Shown here piece by piece: positions 13,913 to 46,348 of a stretch of 64,000 bases of DNA (position 1 is its first letter; each line of letters starts with the position of its first letter). The notes beneath the pieces were generated by a model. The model was not told the DNA's origin. It searched no databases and worked only from the letters and a program-made list of their open reading frames with translations. Where the stretch lies: positions 62,001 through 126,000 of the forward strand of contig JANXLU010000010.1 in the NCBI GenBank assembly GCA_025354985.1, in the 5' to 3' direction. Both the position numbers and the translations under genes were made by a program. The DNA comes from Chloroflexota bacterium (GTDB lineage: Bacteria > Chloroflexota > Anaerolineae > J036 > Brachytrichaceae).

Positions 13913-15076
13913 ATGTTGGAGGAAGCGGCGTTCCACGATGAATTGGCGCAGGCGCTAAGACACCTGGGAGCGTTGGATGTGCTTGGCAACCTGCCGCTAT
14001 CCAGCAGTATCGCCGGCACGCACGACTCGGCGATTGCCCGGGGTACCGCAACCCGGCAGGTGATTGTCGAGGCCATCGATCGGCTAAAGCCTGCAGGGCC
14101 GATAAATTTGGACAGCCCGGATTGGCGCATACACACCATCCTGCATGAACGCTATGTATTGCATCATTCGCCGGGCCAGCTGGAACGTCAATTAAACCTC
14201 GGAGACCGACAAGTACGGCGGGAACACAAGCGGGCGGTCGCAGTTCTTGCGGCCTTGCTCGCATCGCAGGTCGACCCGAGCACACCGCAAAGCGGTTCAA
14301 CTACGAGCCAGCGTGAATCGGTTCGCGAGGCGGTGCATCGCCTGCAACCCGCACCCCGTTTGTTTGGCCTGCGCGATCTGTTTTCCGATGTGGTCGGGGT
14401 GGCATCTACGGTAACAGGTGACGCCGACGTGCCTGCTTGGGTGACGCATCCACCGGATGTAACCGTTTTTGCGGATCGCGGGATATTGAGTCAGTTGCTG
14501 TTAAAGATGATCTTGCCCCATCAGGGCCCGGGCAACGGCGGTACCCTATTGAGTGCTCACCTTCATGGTGAGGCTGTGCGCCTGAAGGTGTCCGGATCCG
14601 GACTGCAAGCCGAAGGCGTGGACTATCAATTAATGCACATGCTCGGCGAAGCGCTGGGAACCACGTTGGTGATTACACCCGACGGTTCGCTGGCCGAGTT
14701 TGCCCTGCCGGTTGGGGGGCCACTCCATTCGGTGCTCGTGATTGATGATGAACCCATGGCGGTTGAATTGCTGCGAAGCTATTTGGCTGGCACCGAATTT
14801 GACGTTACATTTGAAGTGGCGCCCGAAGCAGCCGTGCAAACCGCGCTTGCCAAGGTGCCGGATGTCATCGTGCTTGACGTCATGATGCCTGCCATGGATG
14901 GCTGGGCGCTGTTGCAACGACTGCGCGCGATCCCGGCCACGCGCGAAGTGCCGATCATTGTTTACTCCATCCTTGATGAATCGTCCCTTGCCGAAGCGCT
15001 GGGCGCCACGCGATTTCTAAGGAAGCCCATCGGCAGGTTGGAATGGCTAAATATTTTGCGAGCTACCATTCGTTGA
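13913..15076 (+). CDS. Response regulator with N-terminal HTH-like region and degenerate ATPase-like region
   Basis: A 387-residue protein. Residues 70-120 (ILHERYVLHHSPGQLERQLN, then LGDRQVRREHKRAVAVL) resemble the sigma-like helix-turn-helix found in Chloroflexi regulators. Residues about 165-270 look like a shrunken HATPase fold without N, G1 or G2 boxes. Residues 278-387 form a complete receiver domain: acidic pair IDDE, phosphoacceptor Asp322 (VLDVMMP), Lys371 (FLRKPI). TATAAT lies 10 nt before the ATG, so the leader is very short. The gene is convergent with a hybrid histidine kinase and overlaps its end by 30 nt; the two may form a pair. It is not a standard regulator, as the receiver is at the C-terminus. 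Confidence 0.78.
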   Translation: MLEEAAFHDELAQALRHLGALDVLGNLPLSSSIAGTHDSAIARGTATRQVIVEAIDRLKPAGPINLDSPDWRIHTILHERYVLHHSPGQLERQLNLGDRQVRREHKRAVAVLAALLASQVDPSTPQSGSTTSQRESVREAVHRLQPAPRLFGLRDLFSDVVGVASTVTGDADVPAWVTHPPDVTVFADRGILSQLLLKMILPHQGPGNGGTLLSAHLHGEAVRLKVSGSGLQAEGVDYQLMHMLGEALGTTLVITPDGSLAEFALPVGGPLHSVLVIDDEPMAVELLRSYLAGTEFDVTFEVAPEAAVQTALAKVPDVIVLDVMMPAMDGWALLQRLRAIPATREVPIIVYSILDESSLAEALGATRFLRKPIGRLEWLNILRATIR

Positions 15077-17266
15077 GCGCACACAGGCGTTAACCATGGA
15101 TTCAAGCATGGTCTCCAATTCAAGTTGGCTCAAATGTCCTGAGCGTAGATACGTGATGTAATCGGTATCGGTCGCGCTCATGGCGGTCGCCAGGTCTTCC
15201 GCGGTCACGGCAATAATGTGGGCCGGCGAAAGGAAACGCAGCTTCACAGCCAGCTCGCGACCCGTAGTATCTGGCAACCCAAAGTCGAGCAAAACGACAT
15301 CCGGTCTAAACACCGGCATGGCCTCAAGCGCGGTTTGGCCATCGCGACGAAACTGAATCTGCCAGCCCGGGTTGATCGCAGACAGCGCGGACTGCAAAAA
15401 TTCGACCATCCCCTCATCGTCATCCACAATCAAGATGCGCTCGATAGAACCCCCCAGGCTTGATAGCGCCCTGGCCAATTGTTCGCGACCGACCGGCTTT
15501 ACCAGGGCGCCGGCAAATGGAGCGGGCAATGGTTCGGCCAGGCGCGTGGGTAGCGAGCACACGATGACCGGCAGACCTGCAAGCTGCCCCAGTGTGGTTG
15601 CATCCGGTCGACGTCCATTTCCAGTCGGCGTGCCCACGCACACCATCGCGGCGGGGAATTGATCCGAGATTTGTTGGGCAAGCCCCTTTTTCTCATCATG
15701 CCATATCAGGTCATAATTTGAAAGACTGGTGGTTACCAGTCGGCGTGCCGAATCATCGGCCTGGATAAGCACACGCATCCGTTTGCGCGCCTCGCGTTCC
15801 AATGCCGGCCACCAGGCATCTTCGGTTTCCTTGCGGTATTGATCGTGGGTCAGAGTTGGGTTGGCTTGAATGGGCAGCGTGAATACAAACCGGCTGCCCG
15901 CGCCTGGCATGCTCTCGGCATAGATGCGCCCGCCATGTTGTTCCACAAGGCGCTTGCTGATCACCAGCCCGAGACCAGACGTGCCCCGACCCTGCTTGAA
16001 TGGGCTGCTATCCGCCTGATGAAACTCCTGAAAGAGCCCGGCCAAATCCGGGGCCGAGATACCTGCGCCGGTATCCTCGACTTCAACCACCATTTCATTT
16101 TCAAGCGCATGAGCGCGCACGGTAACGCCCCCGGCATTGGTAAAACGGGCGGCATTGGTGATCAAATTTAGCAATACCTGGCGAATACGAATCCGATCTA
16201 CGTTCACCTCGGATGAATGCCCCGCCGTGACGACACGCAAATATAGCCCGCGCGCACTAAACAGTTCGCGTGTGATTTCGACCGCTTCCATGATGATTTC
16301 GCTGATGTTGGTCACGGTTTTGTTCAGCGTCATGCGATAGGAATCGATGCGGGCCAAATCCAGCACATCATCAATAAGCTGGGATAGATGCTGCCCGCTT
16401 TTGAACACCTGACTCAGGTGCTGGGATAACCGTGGCGTCCATTGCTGACCGATGTAGACATCCCGCGCATTCACCATCAGGTCAGAAAATCCAATAATCA
16501 TGTTGATCGGGCTGCGCAATTCGTGGCTCACGGCGTTGGCAAACTGGGATTTTTGCAGCCGGGCGGATTCAGCCACCTGTCGCGCCAGAATTAACATTTG
16601 ATTCATGCGCTCCAGGCGTGCGTAAGCCTGATCCAAATCATGACTGCGCACCATCAGTTCCGCGCGATGTTGGCGCGCATCGGCGGCGGCGGCCTGCGCC
16701 TGCTTGTTGCTAAACGAGGACCATCCCAGCGCGGTTAGAAATTGGCGCGTCCCCAGCCACGCCACCACGCTGGTAAACAACAGAAATATCACCGGCGCAC
16801 TGGTTTGGGCCAGGCCGATCTTGTTGATTGTTGCACCCCACGCCAGTCCTGCCAGAGCAAGAAACACCGTAGCGAGCGCCCCTCGCGTGGTAAAAAGCAT
16901 GGAGGCAACAACGACCAGAAGCGAAAAAAAGTATGGCGCAGCCTGTGTCTGGGTAAACACCCATTCCAGCTCGGTGGAAACAAACAGGCAGACCATGAAA
17001 ATCGAGCAGAGCAATTTCTTGGGGAGCGCCCGCAATAGAACCACCACCGAAGCGCTTACTCCCAGCGCCACAGGTGTCAGCCAGCCACAGGCTACGAGAC
17101 CACCCGTATTGCAGGCTGATGCGCGTATCGCCGTAATCCAAGCCAATACACCCACCAACCCCATCAAAGCGCGTAGGAAACTTCCGCGCAGGTCCTCGGC
17201 CTCGTCCAAATCGTATGGGTCAATGCGTGTTTCAGAGGGTGCGATAAACGGAGTTGCGGTGACCAT
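15047..17266 (-). CDS. Hybrid membrane histidine kinase with two receiver-like domains
   Basis: A 739-residue protein from the ATG at 17266. There are several membrane helices (residues about 30-200), then HisKA with phosphoacceptor His248 (AVSHELRSP), and HATPase_c with N box NLITNAARF, G1 DTGAGIS and G2 GTSGLGL. Next comes a pseudo-receiver with no acceptor Asp but a KP dyad (GALVKPVG). The final receiver has Asp661 (LLDFGLPD), but its conserved Lys is missing (TYLRSGHL). I chose this start because TACACT (17278-17273) ends 6 nt upstream, which predicts a leaderless mRNA. An array of 11-bp-spaced repeats lies immediately upstream. Confidence 0.88.
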   Translation of the reverse strand: MVTATPFIAPSETRIDPYDLDEAEDLRGSFLRALMGLVGVLAWITAIRASACNTGGLVACGWLTPVALGVSASVVVLLRALPKKLLCSIFMVCLFVSTELEWVFTQTQAAPYFFSLLVVVASMLFTTRGALATVFLALAGLAWGATINKIGLAQTSAPVIFLLFTSVVAWLGTRQFLTALGWSSFSNKQAQAAAADARQHRAELMVRSHDLDQAYARLERMNQMLILARQVAESARLQKSQFANAVSHELRSPINMIIGFSDLMVNARDVYIGQQWTPRLSQHLSQVFKSGQHLSQLIDDVLDLARIDSYRMTLNKTVTNISEIIMEAVEITRELFSARGLYLRVVTAGHSSEVNVDRIRIRQVLLNLITNAARFTNAGGVTVRAHALENEMVVEVEDTGAGISAPDLAGLFQEFHQADSSPFKQGRGTSGLGLVISKRLVEQHGGRIYAESMPGAGSRFVFTLPIQANPTLTHDQYRKETEDAWWPALEREARKRMRVLIQADDSARRLVTTSLSNYDLIWHDEKKGLAQQISDQFPAAMVCVGTPTGNGRRPDATTLGQLAGLPVIVCSLPTRLAEPLPAPFAGALVKPVGREQLARALSSLGGSIERILIVDDDEGMVEFLQSALSAINPGWQIQFRRDGQTALEAMPVFRPDVVLLDFGLPDTTGRELAVKLRFLSPAHIIAVTAEDLATAMSATDTDYITYLRSGHLSQLELETMLESMVNACVRSTNGSSQNI

Positions 17267-17291
17267 TCTGGCAGTGTAGCCCGAAACGGTT

Positions 17292-17353
17292 TTGTCCCTA
17301 CAACATCCGAAACTTGTCCCATCGATGTCCGGTAAATGTCCGATAAATGTCCG
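17292..17353. promoter_or_regulatory. Array of six 7-bp direct repeats at 11-bp period
   Basis: Units start at 17292 (TTGTCCC), 17303 (ACATCCG, degenerate), 17314 (TTGTCCC), 17325, 17336 and 17347 (ATGTCCG each), always 11 bp apart with 4-bp spacers. This 7+4 arrangement on one face of the helix is that of Pho boxes and other sites of OmpR/PhoB-type winged-helix regulators. The array lies between the divergent hybrid kinase and the sugar-transport genes and could control either. The unit orientation points towards the transporter. Confidence 0.75.
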
Positions 17354-17394
17354 CTTGGAAACCAATCCGGGTCTAAAGTTAACTGGCTTATCGT

Positions 17395-17412
17395 AATGAC
17401 CTTGTGGTCATT
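17395..17412. promoter_or_regulatory. Palindromic operator candidate before the ABC importer
   Basis: AATGACC-TTGT-GGTCATT is a perfect inverted repeat with 7-bp arms, ending 33 bp before the ATG of the binding-protein gene. It overlaps a possible -35 (TTGTGG) whose -10 would be TATGTA at about 17426. Its size fits a dimeric repressor site, for example of the LacI or GntR type. No such regulator is encoded nearby. Confidence 0.55.
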
Positions 17413-17445
17413 CAAAACAGTTTTATGTAATCAAGGGAGGAAATA

Positions 17446-18870
17446 ATGCAGAAGATATCAAGAACCCGAATGGCCGGGACTGCCGTGTTTGCAGTAGCCA
17501 TGACGATGGCGGCCTGTGCCGCACCAACCGCGCCACCCGCACAAATCGTGGTTCAAACCGCGGTAGTGACAAGCGTGGTTGAAAAGGTTGTCAACAAAGA
17601 GGTTAACAAGGAAGTGGTGGTCACGGCCACGCCCGCGCCGGTCAAGTCGACCACGGACGAAAAAGCCGCCATTACGGTATGGATCGATGACACGCGCAAG
17701 CCATTGGTTGAAGCTTACAAGAAAAAGTATCCGGAAAAGGCGGCTTTGATCAAGGAAGAAGTGGTTGATCGCGGTACGTTTCCGGCCAAAGTTCTGCTCT
17801 TTAACAACACCGGTAAGGGCTGGCCCGATGTTGTATTTGCCGAACCCAACCTGGTGGCCCAGGTTGCAGATGCCTCGCGTGACTTTCCATTGGACCTGAC
17901 CGATCTTGTCCCGGCTGGAATCAAGGACCAATTTGCGCCAGGCGCCCTTGCGCCGTGCACGTTTGCCGGCAAGTTACTGTGCTTGCGAAACGACATTGCC
18001 CAGAATATGATTTGGTTTAACAAGCCGCTATTCGATCAGTTCAAATACAAGGTTCCCACAACCTGGGCGGAATATGAACAGTTGGGTATGGACCTGGCCA
18101 AGGATCACCCCGGCTATATCATCGGCGCGGTGGACGAAGCCACCCTGGTTTACGTCTTCCTATGGGGCAGCCGCTGTCCTTTGGGTCAGGCGCGCGATGC
18201 AACCACAATTTACATCAACCTAAACGACCCCAAGTGCACTCGTGCGATCACGATGGTTGACAACCTGATCAAGGTGGGGGCCTTGGCAAAAGTGGGGAAT
18301 TTTGATCCGGCGGTCGCCAAGGTTGCGGCTGATAACAAGATCATGATGATGATCGGCCCATCCTGGTTTGGCGAATATGTGTTTGGTGGCAAACCCGAGA
18401 GCACCTACTACAAGAAGGCAGAGGGCCAACTGGATACCGCAGTACCGCTAAAGTGGGACGGCGAGGATAAGAACTACACCGGATTCTGGGGTGGTTCAGC
18501 TTGGTCCGTTTCCCGCCACACCGTAAATCCAAAACTTGCAGTTGATTTCGCAATCTTCGCATCCACAGGTGTGGAATATCACGGGACCGGTCCAACCTAT
18601 CCCGCGTATGCCCCAGCCGCAACCGAATGGCGCAAGACGGTAAAGGGCAATGCGCTGTATGCCCAAGACCCCTATCCTGTCATGGAGAAGGCAGCTGCGG
18701 TGATGGATCCACTGATCACCTCGGTGCGCTATGACCTGACGAGTCCATTCAAGGATCTGGCTGTGCCGGCAATAACCAAGGGTCAAACAGTGGCATCGGT
18801 GGTGCCCGGTCTACAAAAAGCGCTGGTGGGCCTTGCCGAAGCACAGGGTTACACCGTAGTTACAAAATAG
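17446..18870 (+). CDS. Carbohydrate ABC transporter substrate-binding lipoprotein
   Basis: A 474-residue extracellular solute-binding protein of the family-1 type. It has a lipoprotein signal with lipobox MAAC (lipidated Cys24) and a Pro/Thr/Val-rich tether (residues 25-75). The binding fold includes AAITVWIDDTRKPLVEAY, GWPDVVFAEPN, MIWFNKPLFDQF, VPTTWAEYEQLG and GFWGGSAWSVSRH. These match sugar-binding proteins partnered with MalF/MalG-like permeases. GGGAGG at a good distance before the ATG is a strong ribosome binding site. It is the first gene of an importer operon; the ligand is a sugar or polyol, not determinable here. Confidence 0.92.
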   Translation: MQKISRTRMAGTAVFAVAMTMAACAAPTAPPAQIVVQTAVVTSVVEKVVNKEVNKEVVVTATPAPVKSTTDEKAAITVWIDDTRKPLVEAYKKKYPEKAALIKEEVVDRGTFPAKVLLFNNTGKGWPDVVFAEPNLVAQVADASRDFPLDLTDLVPAGIKDQFAPGALAPCTFAGKLLCLRNDIAQNMIWFNKPLFDQFKYKVPTTWAEYEQLGMDLAKDHPGYIIGAVDEATLVYVFLWGSRCPLGQARDATTIYINLNDPKCTRAITMVDNLIKVGALAKVGNFDPAVAKVAADNKIMMMIGPSWFGEYVFGGKPESTYYKKAEGQLDTAVPLKWDGEDKNYTGFWGGSAWSVSRHTVNPKLAVDFAIFASTGVEYHGTGPTYPAYAPAATEWRKTVKGNALYAQDPYPVMEKAAAVMDPLITSVRYDLTSPFKDLAVPAITKGQTVASVVPGLQKALVGLAEAQGYTVVTK

Positions 18871-18879
18871 CGACGGATT

Positions 18880-18950
18880 CGCCCGCCTCTGCAACATCAT
18901 TCTCTGATTCGTGTGGGGCGGGCGGTTGTATACGAACAACCGTCCGCTCC
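18880..18950 (+). promoter_or_regulatory. Mutually exclusive hairpins between binding-protein and permease genes
   Basis: GGGGCGGGCGGTTGT (18915-18929) pairs with ACAACCGTCCGCTCC (18936-18950) over 15 bp, with two G-U pairs and a 6-nt loop. The same left arm (GGCGGGCG, 18917-18924) is also perfectly complementary to CGCCCGCC at 18880-18887, so two alternative structures compete. Such elements after a binding-protein gene usually protect its mRNA or reduce expression of the permeases; attenuation is also possible. Confidence 0.6.
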
Positions 18951-18961
18951 AACCAAATGCC

Positions 18962-19891
18962 GTGACCGTATCCAAGCTTGATCAACCGTTGAGTACGCCC
19001 TTGACTGGTGCATATCGCAAACGCAGTGGCCTGTCATTGCGGGCGGCGCACCTATTCTTGCTTCCGTATGTGATTTTGATGGTGTTATTTGGCATTTTGC
19101 CGGGTGCATATGCATTGGTGATTAGCTTTGCCAAGTTTGTGGGAGGGCGTCCACAGTATTTTTTGGCAGGAATATCAAACTACGTTACCGCCTATTCAGA
19201 TTTTCGATTTCTAACTTCAATTGGTAACATCCTGAGTTTTCTGCTGATCTCGATCCCCGTTGGTGTGGTCGGGGTCCTGTTTATTAGCCTTTGGCTGCAC
19301 GTTAAACCTGGTCGCGTTGCCACCGCCTTCCGCACACTGTTTTTCATTCCAGGCGCCTTTGCAGGACCCGCGCTGGTGTTGTTGGCGTTTTTTATGTTTG
19401 CCCCAACCACCAGCCCGTTTGGATTCTTACTAAGCGCCATGGGTTTTCAAAACAGCGCCGAGGTAACCTTAAAAGACAATTACCCAGTATTGTTTACAGT
19501 GCTCGGGTTCTTCGCCGGGGCGGGTGGCTGGGTGGCCATATTTTATGGCGCCCTCGATGGAATCTCCAGCGAGGTCATGGAAGCTGCCATTATGGACGGC
19601 TGCAACAAATTGGAGTCCGCATATTATGTCAAATTACCACTCATCCGACCTTATATCGCCTATATGGTTATTTTGACGGTAGCGGGAAACGTGCAACTGT
19701 TTGCCGAACCACAACTATTTGGGGCCAAGTATTGGTCACCCAACCAGCTCGGGTATGCGTTTGCGTTTGAGATCGGAAATTTCGGCGCGTCTGCCGCCAT
19801 CTCACTACTTATGGTTTTTGTCGGTTTGATTGCAGCCACAATCATCATCAAGTTTTCCGGCTTCTATCAGACCGACGCCACAGCCAGCTAG
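18962..19891 (+). CDS. ABC sugar transporter permease, MalF-like
   Basis: A 309-residue membrane protein with about six helices and the EAA loop that contacts the ATPase (SSEVMEAAIMDGCNKLESAYYVKLPLI in positions about 215-240, quoted in part: MEAAIMDGCNKLE). It forms the channel with the next permease. The open frame begins with GTG at 18911, but that codon lies at the edge of the long hairpin, so I place the start at GTG 18962 (MTVSKLDQPL). No Shine-Dalgarno site is seen at either. Confidence 0.9.
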   Translation: MTVSKLDQPLSTPLTGAYRKRSGLSLRAAHLFLLPYVILMVLFGILPGAYALVISFAKFVGGRPQYFLAGISNYVTAYSDFRFLTSIGNILSFLLISIPVGVVGVLFISLWLHVKPGRVATAFRTLFFIPGAFAGPALVLLAFFMFAPTTSPFGFLLSAMGFQNSAEVTLKDNYPVLFTVLGFFAGAGGWVAIFYGALDGISSEVMEAAIMDGCNKLESAYYVKLPLIRPYIAYMVILTVAGNVQLFAEPQLFGAKYWSPNQLGYAFAFEIGNFGASAAISLLMVFVGLIAATIIIKFSGFYQTDATAS

Positions 19892-19932: not shown

Positions 19933-20847
19933 GTGAATAGATCGATAACCTCTCAAGGAAGCACCCCAAAGCGCAAGAGCGAATATAGCGCCAGCTGGCT
20001 GTTATGGGTGAGTGTGTTGGTCTTACTGGCGGTTTATTTTGGCGCCCCAATCCTGTGGTTACTGGCTGCCCCGACCAAGCTGGACGGTGAACTGCTATCC
20101 CTGCCTTCACTTGCAATTGGCGACGTGCGCAATTACGCCCAGGCCTGGGCGAACTTGCTCACCTACGGCAAAGGCGTGGTGTTATTGTGGGCACAAAACT
20201 CGGCAATGTACACCATTTCGTCGGTTTTCCTTAGCGTCATAGTGTCTGTTCCAGCCGGATACGCTTTGGCGACCTCACAGTTTGCCGGGCGGCGACTAAT
20301 CATGACGCTCACCCTCATCACGATGATCCTGCCAGGTTCGGCCATGGTGCTACCGCTCTTTCTTGAGATGAACCAGTTTGGGCTGATCGACACGCCCTGG
20401 GCGGTCATCGTGCCCGCGATGTTCTATCCGTTTGGCGTATATCTGGCCTATGTACATTTCTCAACGGCCATTCCAAAAGATCTGCTGTCGGCCGGCCGCG
20501 TGGATGGTTGCAATGAGTGGCAATTGTTTCGATATGTGGGGCTGCCGCTGGCGCGGACCCTGTTTGCGCTCCTCTCGTTCCTCAGCTTTACGTCCAACTG
20601 GAATAACTACTTTTTGCCATTCGTCATGCTGAATGACAGCAAGTTGTTCAGCCTGCCGGTCGGTCTGCAGGTGATGGCCACCAGCACGCCTATGCTCAAC
20701 CCTACGTTTGCCGCTGAAAACGCCGTGGTACGTCGTCCGGAGGCAGCCCTGATTGTTCTAATGCTCGTGGTCCCGGTGATCATTATTTTCCTGGTTGCCC
20801 AGCGATACATCGTGCGGAGTGCCCTGTCCGGTTCGCTCAAGGACTAA
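19933..20847 (+). CDS. ABC sugar transporter permease, MalG-like
   Basis: A 304-residue membrane permease with six predicted helices and the EAA loop IPKDLLSAGRVDGCNEW. It begins with GTG at 19933, with AAAGGA about 13 nt upstream. It completes the importer encoded with the binding lipoprotein and the MalF-like permease. No ATP-binding subunit is encoded in this locus, so a shared MsmK-type ATPase elsewhere in the genome must drive it. Confidence 0.92.
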   Translation: MNRSITSQGSTPKRKSEYSASWLLWVSVLVLLAVYFGAPILWLLAAPTKLDGELLSLPSLAIGDVRNYAQAWANLLTYGKGVVLLWAQNSAMYTISSVFLSVIVSVPAGYALATSQFAGRRLIMTLTLITMILPGSAMVLPLFLEMNQFGLIDTPWAVIVPAMFYPFGVYLAYVHFSTAIPKDLLSAGRVDGCNEWQLFRYVGLPLARTLFALLSFLSFTSNWNNYFLPFVMLNDSKLFSLPVGLQVMATSTPMLNPTFAAENAVVRRPEAALIVLMLVVPVIIIFLVAQRYIVRSALSGSLKD

Positions 20848-20851
20848 ATGT

Positions 20852-20918
20852 CTGACAAGCACTTATCAAAGCTCTGACAACCAATTGTCAAGTTTTTGTC
20901 ATGACACGCGCCTAGAAT
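20852..20918 (+). promoter_or_regulatory. Pho-box-like promoter of the alpha-2-macroglobulin gene
   Basis: Five 7-bp units start exactly every 11 bp. CTGACAA at 20852, TTATCAA at 20863 and CTGACAA at 20874 are in reverse orientation; TTGTCAA at 20885 and TTGTCAT at 20896 are forward. The two forward units closely match the E. coli Pho box (two CTGTCAT-like units with a 4-bp spacer). A -10 element TAGAAT (20913-20918) follows 10 bp after the last unit, with no -35 consensus, just as in PhoB-dependent promoters. Confidence 0.78.
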
Positions 20919-41744: not shown

Positions 41745-41804
41745 CAGGATACCAAGGCCCCATGCCTTGCGTGGAAGAATGGTTTGGCCTTTACAATTCC
41801 AACA

Positions 41805-42531: not shown

Positions 42532-43689
42532 TTATAGCGCCTGCCAGCTGGCTCCACCTGCGGCCACACATGGATAAATATTTGGAGTCCGCCCGGTTCG
42601 CTTGGGGTATTCGTCCGCCAGAAGCGCGCTAACCCGATCCACATGCGCGTTGTCAACCAGCACAATCGCACAGCCGCCAAAACCCGCCCCCGTCATGCGC
42701 GCGCCATATACGCCCTCGCCCGCCTCGCGTGCAATTTCAACGACCGCATCCAGGTCCGGGCTGCTCACCTCGTATAGATCGCGCAAGCTCTCGTGGCTGT
42801 GATACATAAGAATGCCAAGCTCCTCAAGGTCGCCCCGCTTCATGGCCGCCGTGGCGTCCAGCACGCGCTGATCCTCGAGCACCACGTGCGCAACGCGATG
42901 CATGATTTCGGTAGGCAGGTCGGCCTGTCGACGCTTAAACATCGCCATGGTTACATCCCGCAAGCTGTCCACCCCCAGTATCACCGCGCCCGCCTCGCAG
43001 TCGGCGCGCCGGGCGTTATAGGCGCTCCCGGCAAGCGTGCGCGGCGCTGTGGTGTCAACCACGATCACGGTTGCGCCTACGGGCATGGGCACCGCTTCGA
43101 ACGAGTAGTCGCGACAGTCAATCTTCAGCGCATGCCCGGGCTGGCCCAATGAAGAAATAAATTGATCCATGATTCCGCTGTTCACGCCGATAAACTGGTT
43201 TTCACACTTCTGCCCAATCTTGGCCGCCTTGATGCCATCGACCTCGATCGGTGATCCCGCTTGCACGCCCGCCGCCAGAAAGGCTTGGATCGTCGCCATT
43301 TCGCTCGCGGCGCTGGAGCTCAACCCGCTGGCGGGCGGCACATCACCCCACATTACCGCGTCAAAGCCCGTCAGCGCATAGCCATAGTCGGTCAATGTGC
43401 GGGCCACCCCTCGCACATAATTAAGCCAGTCAGGCTCGCCCTTGCTGATTGCATCCAGGCTAAACTCACCCGAGTTGCCAAAATTACACGAAGCAATCCG
43501 CACGACTCTATCCGAACGCGGTGCGCCAACCAGCACCACGCGACGATTGATCGCCATGGGCAGCACAAAGCCGTTGTTGTAATCGGTGTGTTCACCGATC
43601 AAATTAACCCGACCGGGTGCGCGGGCCAAAAACGAAGGCGTGCGATGAAAGTGTGCGGTAAATTCTTGTGAGAGGTTGATGGAATCCAC
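42532..43689 (-). CDS. galK: Galactokinase
   Basis: A 385-residue GHMP kinase that phosphorylates galactose at C1 in the Leloir pathway. The galactokinase signature GRVNLIGEHTDYNNG is near the N-terminus, the ATP loop GLSSSAASEM near residue 118, and the C-terminal motif RMTGAGFGGCAIVL is complete. It starts with GTG at 43689; TAAAAT (43701-43696) ends 6 nt upstream, so the mRNA should be leaderless. The gene is convergent with the OmpR-type regulator, their stops 1 nt apart. No galT or galE is adjacent. Confidence 0.96.
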   Translation of the reverse strand: MDSINLSQEFTAHFHRTPSFLARAPGRVNLIGEHTDYNNGFVLPMAINRRVVLVGAPRSDRVVRIASCNFGNSGEFSLDAISKGEPDWLNYVRGVARTLTDYGYALTGFDAVMWGDVPPASGLSSSAASEMATIQAFLAAGVQAGSPIEVDGIKAAKIGQKCENQFIGVNSGIMDQFISSLGQPGHALKIDCRDYSFEAVPMPVGATVIVVDTTAPRTLAGSAYNARRADCEAGAVILGVDSLRDVTMAMFKRRQADLPTEIMHRVAHVVLEDQRVLDATAAMKRGDLEELGILMYHSHESLRDLYEVSSPDLDAVVEIAREAGEGVYGARMTGAGFGGCAIVLVDNAHVDRVSALLADEYPKRTGRTPNIYPCVAAGGASWQAL

Positions 43690-43743
43690 AACGATATTTT
43701 AGAGCGTGTTAAGACAGTTCGTTGTCGCATACGGAACAATCAC

Positions 43744-43818
43744 GTGAATATCGGTATCTACTTTGGCACCCAGACAGGAACAACAGAGGGAATCGCGACA
43801 AATATAGCCAGGCAACTG
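43744..43818 (+). pseudogene. Flavodoxin N-terminal remnant
   Basis: From a GTG at 43744 the frame reads NIGIYFGTQTGTTEGIATNI, the phosphate-binding P-loop strand of flavodoxins, and then loses all similarity. It stays open into the following SDR gene, so a naive gene call would fuse the two. The rest of a flavodoxin (about 120 residues) is absent. It is best read as the start of a deleted flavodoxin gene. Confidence 0.6.
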
Positions 43819-43896
43819 ATCAACCACGCCGCATCCATTCGCTCAATTTTGCATGCTCGCCGCGTATATCCCGCGGTTGATCGTAGAATTCGTCAT

Positions 43897-44682
43897 GTGG
43901 CTTCGCCTTCTGTCAACGACCTGCTAAATTTTGCAAACAAGACCGTTATCGTCTCAGGCGGCAGCGATGGCATCGGGCGGGGTATTTCCATGCGGTTTGC
44001 CGAGGCTGGCGCTGATGTCGTGGTGCACTTCAACCGCAGTGCCAGCCGGGCCGCGGAGACTGTAGCGCAGATTCATAGACTTGGCAGGCGCGCTGTATCT
44101 GTTCAAGCTGATGTGACTGATGCAGCTCAAGTTCACCAGCTGATCGAAAGCGCAATTTCGGAGTTTGGTCGTCTCGACGTGCTCATCAACAATGCCGGCG
44201 TCTATCCGGTTAATCCGCTGCTCGCCCTGTCACCCGACGACTGGAATGCCGTGGTAAGCGCCAACCTGACCAGTGTTCACTTGTGCACTCAGGCGTCGGC
44301 ACGGAGTTTCATCGCACAGCGCATCGCGGGCGCGATCGTCAACATCGCCAGCATTGAGGGAACGCACACCGCCCCGGGCCACAGCCACTACAACGCCGCC
44401 AAGGCGGGCGTCATCATGCATACCAAGTCGGCGGCGGCCGAGCTGGGCACACACGGCATTCGGGTGAACGCGGTCTCACCGGGTTTGATCTGGCGCGACG
44501 GGATCGAACAAGGTTGGCCGGATGGTGTCCGACGTTGGCAGGAACGCGCGCCCTTACATCGTCTGGGCCTGCCCGATGACGTGGCGGATGCCTGTCTGTT
44601 TCTCGCTTCGTCCGCCGCCCGCTGGGTCACCGGCATCAACCTGGTCGTCGATGGCGGTGTGACTGCTGCACCCGCGTTTTAA
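43897..44682 (+). CDS. Short-chain dehydrogenase/reductase
   Basis: A 261-residue Rossmann enzyme of the classical SDR family: nucleotide-binding GGSDGIGRG, NNAG, catalytic Ser (NIASIEG), the YNAAK motif and C-terminal WVTGINLVVDGG, as in FabG-like oxidoreductases. NADP(H) use is likely from the Arg after the second strand (HFNRS). The start is GTG at 43897, because TAGAAT (43884-43889) ends 7 nt upstream; the open frame before it belongs to a flavodoxin remnant. The DUF985 gene follows after 4 nt. Confidence 0.9.
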   Translation: MASPSVNDLLNFANKTVIVSGGSDGIGRGISMRFAEAGADVVVHFNRSASRAAETVAQIHRLGRRAVSVQADVTDAAQVHQLIESAISEFGRLDVLINNAGVYPVNPLLALSPDDWNAVVSANLTSVHLCTQASARSFIAQRIAGAIVNIASIEGTHTAPGHSHYNAAKAGVIMHTKSAAAELGTHGIRVNAVSPGLIWRDGIEQGWPDGVRRWQERAPLHRLGLPDDVADACLFLASSAARWVTGINLVVDGGVTAAPAF

Positions 44683-44686
44683 CCTC

Positions 44687-45202
44687 ATGCTGACCGCTGA
44701 ATTAGTTGTAAAACACTTGGGGCTGCAGCCGCTGCCTTTGGAAGGCGGATACTACATCCAAAGCTATCGGTCAAGCGAGTCAATCGCCGGCAATGCGCTT
44801 CCAGACCGATACAACTCTGCAAACCATCTCTTTGGCGGAGCCATCTACTATCTCCTGACCGATCATCCGGATTCATTCTCAGCCCTTCACAAGCTTAAAA
44901 CGGACGAGCTATATCATTTTTATCTTGGCGATCCGGTGCAGCTCACCATGCTAACCGCGGATGGAGCTATGCAACTACACACCCTTGGGCAGAATCTATT
45001 CGCACACCAACACGTGCAATTAAGTGTCCCGCACGGCGTCTGGCAGGGCTCGCGACTGATTGCCGGTGGCAAATTCGCCTTGCTGGGCACCACAATGGCG
45101 CCGGCTTTTGAGCCCGAAGACTATGTGCATGGCGAACGAGCGGCCCTGCTCAGCCAATATCCAAATTACAGCGCACAAATCCTTGAGCTTACCCGCTGGT
45201 AG
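44687..45202 (+). CDS. DUF985 cupin-like protein
   Basis: A 171-residue protein with the DUF985/cupin_5 pattern: LEGGYYIQSYRS, the AIYYLLTDHPDSFSALHKLK block, ELYHFYLGDPVQL, and HVQLSVPHGVWQGSRLI. This is a small jelly-roll fold of unknown activity, perhaps sugar epimerase-like. It starts 4 nt after the SDR stop and is surely co-translated. Its C-terminal 30 residues also occur as a degraded copy 1.3 kb downstream. Confidence 0.85.
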   Translation: MLTAELVVKHLGLQPLPLEGGYYIQSYRSSESIAGNALPDRYNSANHLFGGAIYYLLTDHPDSFSALHKLKTDELYHFYLGDPVQLTMLTADGAMQLHTLGQNLFAHQHVQLSVPHGVWQGSRLIAGGKFALLGTTMAPAFEPEDYVHGERAALLSQYPNYSAQILELTRW

Positions 45203-45472
45203 ATGTAGGAGGTCCTGCGGACGCAGGTCGGCCTCCACGCGCAGCATAGCGAGCCCGGGCATGCCATATTAGACCTGCCCGCGACCGGGTCGGGTGTCTA
45301 CGGAATAGCAGGCGTGCAGGTTCACCTCGTTTCCCTTGGCGGCCGGTGGCAACGTCTGTAAATCGGGTCGGTTGGCAAAGATCCAAGCCCCGGGGCCCCT
45401 TAGATTTTTGGGGCTCATGGGTCACATTCCGCGCTCAGCGCAAAACAAACAGTTTACTCCGGACAGTAATAA
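45203..45472. other. Intergenic region with hairpins, no gene
   Basis: This 270-bp gap lies between convergent genes. Just after the DUF985 stop a two-tier hairpin forms (GGAGG at 45208-45212 with CCTCC at 45232-45236; inner CCTGCG with CGCAGG). Further on a GGGGCCCC palindrome sits within AGCCCC...GGGGCT at about 45390-45416. No T-run follows either. I see no coding potential. Confidence 0.5.
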
Positions 45473-46348
45473 TCAGTTCAGAACGACTAGCGGCAGGAAG
45501 GAATGATTGCCATGCGACCCGATTACCGGTGTGCCAGTTGGCTCGCTGGTTGGATGCGCGGTTGGCGCGGTGGTAACTGTCGGAGTTTCGCCAGAAATGC
45601 CAATCGGAGATGCCCAGCCTGCATCCAGAAATGGCAACAGCGAATGAATCAGGTCGTACGTCGTTCCAAACTGGCCACTGTCAGGATCGTAATGCGTCCC
45701 TGCCTTTTCCAGTGCGCTTACTGGAAAGCCATTTGTAGCAAGGGTTGTCAAATCCGTCCGAACTGTGGCGATGGGATATACCGCGTCAGACTGATGCGCC
45801 AGGTGTGCCACATTTATCTTCCAGGCAGCCGCGGCCATCAGCGCCGTAGAAGTTGCACCCGTGTCTCGAAATGGATCGCTATTTTCAACCAGCAGGCCGG
45901 CAAATAACGCAGCGTTCTGAAAACCCACCCGATACGTCATATCGCCGCCCGACGAGTAGCCACCCAGGTAAACGTGGCGCGCGTTGATGTTGAAATACCT
46001 CGCAATATCGGTGATTGCGGCCAACACCTTGGGCGAGTCGGTGTCCACGTGCCAGCAATCGCCATCGCGACCGCCGATGGAGAGGGCGATATAAGTTTGC
46101 GTGGCTCGTGTTGACGGCGGTGCAATGGCCCAAAGATCACCTTCAGCGTTGCCTCCGCAACCATGCATCCATACAAACAGGTTGATGGGAGTTGCGCTGC
46201 TATACCCATCAGGACGGTATCCAACATAGGGACCCTGACCACTATCCAGATGAAAGAACCCGTTGGCGTCATAAGTCACCGGCAAATAAGACGCCGGTCT
46301 GAACGATACGGACGCTGCCAGGATCAAGAGAATGAGCAGCATTTTCAT
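45473..46348 (-). CDS. Secreted alpha/beta-hydrolase (PHB depolymerase/feruloyl esterase-like)
   Basis: A 291-residue exported hydrolase. The signal peptide starts MKMLLILLILAASVSF (ATG 46348; the 28 codons before it, including an Ala run, look non-coding). The oxyanion region WMHGCGGNAEGD, nucleophile GYSSGGD, an Asp in HQSDAVYP and a final His in LIHSLLPF build an esterase-type triad as in LpqC/PHB depolymerases. A Thr/Pro-rich linker (TTAPTAHPTSEPTGTP) leads to the tail HSFLPLVVLN, like those of two other secreted proteins here. Substrate unknown. Confidence 0.85.
   Translation of the reverse strand: MKMLLILLILAASVSFRPASYLPVTYDANGFFHLDSGQGPYVGYRPDGYSSATPINLFVWMHGCGGNAEGDLWAIAPPSTRATQTYIALSIGGRDGDCWHVDTDSPKVLAAITDIARYFNINARHVYLGGYSSGGDMTYRVGFQNAALFAGLLVENSDPFRDTGATSTALMAAAAWKINVAHLAHQSDAVYPIATVRTDLTTLATNGFPVSALEKAGTHYDPDSGQFGTTYDLIHSLLPFLDAGWASPIGISGETPTVTTAPTAHPTSEPTGTPVIGSHGNHSFLPLVVLN

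Follow-up and report, generated by a model that had tools for sequence, protein, structure and literature searches.

An 11-bp-Phased TGTCC Array as the Probable Operator of a Sigma-Region-4-Like Response Regulator Upstream of a Chloroflexota Sugar Importer

Organization of the Locus

The window, by which the whole analyzed stretch of 64,000 nucleotides is meant, carries an array of six 7-bp units with the core TGTCC (17292-17353, forward strand) between the gene for a hybrid histidine kinase and an operon encoding a sugar-type ABC importer. As the original prediction stated, the array faces the importer, its TGTCC units reading toward the genes that start at 17446. The first of these (17446-18870, forward strand) encodes a solute-binding lipoprotein of 474 aa, which gave no match in a Pfam search and a weak match to the NCBIfam family NgcE, and is preceded by a ribosome-binding site assigned from the sequence (GGGAGG, 17435-17440, forward strand). 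Two ABC permease genes follow on the same strand, one UgpA/GlcT-like (18911-19891) and the other UgpE/GlcU/MalG-like (19933-20847). On the opposite side of the array, the kinase gene (15047-17266, reverse strand) encodes HisKA, HATPase, and receiver domains, the last of which seemingly lacks its conserved lysine. The gene for the cognate regulator (387 aa; 13913-15076, forward strand) is convergent with the kinase gene, and the two overlap at their 3′ ends.

The kinase ORF opens at 17365, and its likely start codon is the ATG at 17266-17264. A -10-like element on the reverse strand, TACACT (17278-17273), lies just ahead of this codon and 13 bp from the array, which makes a leaderless kinase mRNA, as proposed originally, plausible. 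A sigma-70 promoter scan of the kinase-importer intergenic region found no promoter and no -35 element, and the -10 of the importer was therefore assigned by the phasing seen across related loci (see below). The predicted element is TAAAGT (17374-17379, forward strand; 4/6 positions), located 26 bp 3′ of the T in the final TGTCC. By this spacing, transcription is predicted to start (+1) near 17386, so that units 5 and 6 span -49 to -34 with their center at -41.5, which is a class II activator position. Just 3′ of the predicted +1 lies a perfect inverted repeat, AATGACC-TTGT-GGTCATT (17395-17412), a possible second operator or RNA hairpin.

The Six-Unit Array

All six predicted units are present and are spaced by exactly 11 bp: TTGTCCC at 17292 and 17314, ACATCCG at 17303, and ATGTCCG at 17325, 17336, and 17347. 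Five of the six read [AT]TGTCC[CG], the same count as first reported, and the degenerate one is the second. No other part of the window scores as high at period 11 as the array, whose 6-unit consensus reaches 36/42; the maximum at this period in 100 Markov-1 simulated 64-kb windows was 32. Scores of 36-38 do occur in a few places elsewhere in the window, but at periods 12, 21, and 24. In a genome-wide pattern search, the exact triplet TGTCC-N6-TGTCC-N6-TGTCC was found at a single place in the 4.19-Mb genome, the array itself. The number of units is also high for the family of loci described below, in which three units are the rule (30 of the 39 strictly scored arrays) and five the maximum.

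Units 4-6 are nearly identical and their spacers are alike (GTAA/ATAA), as would be expected if the array were a neutral tandem repeat that arose by slippage. Against this origin, the spacers diverge and the cores are kept across units and across loci, and the same phase recurs with other cores, which follow the regulator, in dozens of unrelated intergenic regions. A slippage origin is thus given almost no credence. The 11-bp phase of the array is in all likelihood functional.

A second 11-bp array lies at 20852-20912 of the window, between the importer operon and the gene for a 2097-aa bacterial alpha-2-macroglobulin. Its cores are TTGTCA/CTGACA, bearing out the earlier remark that they differ from the TGTCC core. 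Pairs of TTGTCA at 11 bp number 40 genome-wide vs. 10 in the reversed control, an excess of about four times, and this second array is therefore probably part of another regulon of broader extent.

A Recurring Kinase, Regulator, and Importer Module

A search of 60 genomes for three TGTCC units returned matches in six besides this genome, and in four of the six a kinase homologue lies within ∼1.4 kb of the match. With the 387-aa regulator as the query, dozens of homologues were recovered, about 30 of them in one genome. The kinase and regulator genes are convergent in 85 of the 95 modules collected, with overlapping 3′ ends in 67 of the 95. Among 16 modules in which the gene past the array was checked, Pfam identifies a solute-binding protein in 12 (L115, L138, L114, L117, L118, L198, L123, L149, L146, L119, L182, and L108). 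In two further modules (L156 and L192) this gene has no Pfam match, with a size and position as for a binding protein; in L106 a permease flanks one side and a GH95 glycosidase the opposite one; and in L125 the gene encodes a PhyH-type dioxygenase. The importer is thus the usual, though not the universal, target of the module. By sequence, the locus in the window appears to belong to this family, having a convergent kinase/regulator pair, an 11-bp array facing an importer, and a core that matches regulator residue 102 (see below). Searches of open-licence papers returned no relevant earlier description of the module family, and these kinase/regulator/array systems apparently form a large, undescribed family in Chloroflexota.

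Several loci bear on the distribution of the array. The binding-protein orthologue is kept, at 81% identity, in a genome of the same genus (G003), and in this assembly, which is 78% complete, searches gave no full-length regulator match, no close kinase match, and no TGTCC array in the 522 bp upstream of the binding-protein gene; this joint absence, tentative at such completeness, speaks for the regulator as the binder of the array. Two further genomes, G008 and G016, hold TGTCCTA arrays at 11 bp (L179:1488-1540, and L071 at G016:C222 about 7088), and no kinase/regulator module was found near their TGTCC triplets in the stretch read, which counts against the module's regulator as the binder. 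In G005, a perfect 11-bp tandem repeat, TCACCGTCCTA, is present in at least six copies between the kinase and GH95 glycosidase genes (L106:7630-7720).

Conservation of Phase and Promoter Spacing

Upstream of the kinase or regulator genes, 3-unit arrays of period 11 reach p ≤ 0.01 in 23 of 107 regions, compared with 0-3 of the same regions at periods 8, 9, 10, 12, 13, 14, 21, and 22, and with 3 of 120 other promoters of the same loci at period 11. Separately fetched loci behave alike, with period 11 at p ≤ 0.05 in 8 of 26 regions vs. 0-3 for six other periods. The check proposed with the original prediction, conservation of the 11-bp phase in related modules, therefore came out in its favor, as period 11 is enriched and the others are not. 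The cores vary from module to module and include TGTCC, TGGCC, TGGCG, TGTCG, TGGCA, TGTCACC, GTGAAC, and TTTGACA, among others; across modules it is the phase of the array that is conserved and not its sequence. The orientation recurs as well: TGTCC points at the importer in G022, G024, and G009, just as it does in the window.

The array is also phased with the promoter. Downstream of the array, good -10 hexamers (5 or 6 of 6 positions) mostly lie 26-29, 36-38, or 45-48 bp away, counted from the T of its final unit, offsets that step by about one helical turn, and -10 elements phased with the array number 33 on the importer side vs. 0 on the regulator side. Repression offers another account of the same arrangement, in which the regulator would mainly hold down the importer promoter, the kinase promoter, or both, until a signal frees the DNA. 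The array does abut the kinase -10 (17273-17278), and in both promoters it overlaps the -35 region, as such an account would have it, but the constant phase between array and importer -10, the weak -10 in the window, the lack of a detected -35, and the lack of -10 phasing toward the regulator fit activation better, and a mainly repressive role is considered unlikely. Activation of the importer thus remains the preferred reading. The original prediction further held that one site could couple the kinase and importer genes. Since the array abuts the kinase -10, such coupling is possible, though the phasing with -10 elements is confined to the importer side.

Domain Architecture of the Regulator

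The regulator is composed of an N-terminal helix-turn-helix (HTH) domain resembling sigma region 4, a HATPase-like, probably degenerate middle, and a C-terminal receiver. The receiver provides the sole significant Pfam match in the window protein (PF00072, 1.4e-17); in the family alignment its residues D279 and D322 are invariant and K371 is conserved in at least 90% of sequences. These features, which correspond to the acidic residue, phospho-acceptor Asp, and Lys expected of a receiver, identify the protein as a two-component response regulator. The HTH was recognized from relatives, from the predicted fold, and from the alignment: sigma-70 region 4 matches, weak and mostly below the Pfam threshold, occur in 13 of 28 family members. 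Weak HATPase_c matches cover the middle in 6 of the 28. This part of the protein is probably degenerate, because the N-box asparagine of HATPase-type ATPases does not correspond to any conserved column of the alignment.

The full-length structural model has a mean pLDDT of 84.8, rising to 94.6 for the DNA-binding domain (residues 1-122; 13913-14278, forward strand), which is modeled as all helical and without a wing. Foldseek searches with the full-length model were dominated by receivers and were repeated with residues 1-122, for which the nearest solved folds are the -35-binding domains of ECF sigma factors (3hug, 8jzt, 3vfz, 2h27, and 3vep). These region 4 hits have probabilities of mostly 0.9-1.0 with E-values of about 0.2-1.7, the top hits standing at a probability of ∼1.0, a TM-score to the target of ∼0.7, and an E-value of ∼0.2; the modeled domain is accordingly termed sigma-region-4-like, a description that stops short of proven homology.

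Covariation Between Recognition Helix and Core

The relationship between regulator and core was analyzed in a set of 79 modules, reduced so that identity stays under 60%, with residues numbered as in the window regulator, where the start of the recognition helix (residues 97-102, G D R Q V R) is encoded at 14201-14218 (forward strand). In this set, all 29 called arrays of modules with Arg at residue 102 have the core TGKCC, and all 6 of those with Gln have TGKCG; with Tyr or Trp the core is TGKCA in 7 of 12, a looser association than those of Arg and Gln. Permutation of the labels linking residue 102 and core yields p = 5e-5, and neither period 10 nor period 12 shows such a pattern. No array scores above threshold in 28 of the 71 modules with Arg102.

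The residue 102 rule was fixed in writing before genomes outside the organism's class were analyzed. In these later genomes Arg was paired with C in 10 of 10 called arrays, Gln with G in 1 of 1, and Tyr/Trp with A in 2 of 2, and permutation gave p = 5e-5 at period 11 and 0.31 at period 12; at period 10 it gave 0.009, but with zero called arrays in the Arg, Gln, and Tyr/Trp classes. Some of the automatically called regulators in these later genomes were in fact kinases (helix text SHELR); such rows fall into the class “other” in these counts and were removed from the pooled column scans. When all protein columns, which share one phylogeny, were scanned in the pooled set, residue 102 ranked first (z = 15.2), with the next column at 5.4. 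Base 3 of the core is associated with residue 97, located where the helix begins (z = 6.8): T accompanies Gly in 10 of 13 cases, and G accompanies Ser in 31 of 51. A tree built without the helix columns gave independent contrasts that agree in direction, about 3 being the same and 0 opposite among 4-5 supported pairs, too few for significance. Because the window regulator has Gly97 and Arg102, its predicted core is TGTCC, which is the core observed. One subgroup (L123, L159, L160, and L162) has the recognition helix RTLYFKE with GTGAAC arrays and lies outside the TGKCx pattern.

This covariation bears directly on which protein binds the array. OmpR-family boxes are direct repeats at 11 bp with a TGTCA-type core, and the window encodes an OmpR-family protein at 41784; a winged-helix regulator of this OmpR/PhoB kind could accordingly use the array as a Pho-box-like site. 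The core, however, tracks residue 102 of the module's own regulator, none of 140 other module loci has an OmpR-type DNA-binding domain related to 41784, and the exact TGTCC triplet is confined to one genomic place, in contrast to the 40 TTGTCA pairs against 10 in the control. Recognition by an OmpR-type protein is consequently regarded as highly improbable. The earlier proposal of a cooperative filament of winged-helix regulators survives in its first part, the array having the form of a cooperative-type operator, and is not supported in its second, as the core follows a regulator that is not winged.

Proposed Mechanism and Implications

The array very probably serves the response regulator of the module (gene at 13913-15076) as its operator, through which the importer would be activated. 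In the proposed mechanism, the membrane hybrid kinase (15047-17266) would sense a signal, the presumed inducer, and lead to phosphorylation of the C-terminal receiver of the regulator, on which DNA binding may depend. The sigma-region-4-like HTH would then bind the TGTCC units head-to-tail, with one protomer per 11-bp turn, so that all protomers share a single face of the DNA. Within the recognition helix, residue 102 is predicted to read base 5 of TGKCx, and residue 97 to influence base 3. From a position of about -41.5, the bound regulator would activate RNA polymerase of the sigma-70 type at the importer promoter. As the array touches the kinase promoter, it may also mediate autoregulation of the kinase gene.

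In broader terms, the balance of the evidence leans toward Chloroflexota holding an expanded family of sigma-region-4-like response regulators, numbering as many as ∼30 in a genome, that read 11-bp arrays by a simple amino-acid-to-base code. If so, paralogues would be insulated from one another partly by joint recoding of operator and helix, and the family would offer a naturally occurring collection of orthogonal regulator/operator pairs that serve sugar importers. A regulator, an operator, and a promoter could thereby be assigned to a large class of sugar-uptake systems in bacteria difficult to cultivate. The family further suggests that the sigma-region-4-type HTH has been reused in two-component regulators as a phased, head-to-tail reader of DNA, and the helix-to-core code would make regulon prediction and the separation of paralogue targets directly testable.

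Comparison With Known Regulatory Systems

The system resembles those of OmpR/PhoB in its two-component control and in the head-to-tail 11-bp repeats that lie 5′ of the -10 elements of transport genes. It differs in carrying a wingless, sigma-region-4-like HTH N-terminally and the receiver C-terminally, and in a TGTCC core that varies with the regulator; Trans_reg_C, the C-terminal winged helix of OmpR/PhoB proteins, is not among the families matched by the 28 regulator members. Promoters controlled by SARPs (AfsR and its relatives) likewise contain direct repeats, with a period of 11 bp (or 22 bp), that overlap the -35 region, with the 3′ repeat 8 bp from the -10 (PMC10936776), in contrast to the distance of ∼20 bp or more between the last unit and the -10 here. 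SARPs combine an OmpR-type winged DNA-binding domain with a BTA domain, and the regulator described here has neither.

ECF sigma region 4 provides the closest PDB folds to the DNA-binding domain. Unlike an ECF sigma factor, however, the regulator is without sigma region 2, is fused to a receiver, and would occupy multiple phased sites rather than one -35 element; a sigma factor is defined by regions 2 and 4, and among the matches listed for the 28 members there is no region 2 and region 4 is weak. NarL/FixJ (LuxR-type) regulators share the combination of a receiver and a helical HTH, but their domain order is the reverse, and the present family has an added ATPase-like middle and direct repeats at 11 bp; the GerE/LuxR family is not among the Pfam matches listed for the regulator members.

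The same DNA-binding domain also occurs near the C-terminus of a 698-aa protein (L278:5117-7213, reverse strand; G000:C5 about 43616-45712) that has hydrophobic N-terminal segments and whose gene adjoins that for triosephosphate isomerase. It looks like a membrane-bound one-component relative, and similar proteins of 640-710 aa are found across Chloroflexota, with one or a few per genome.
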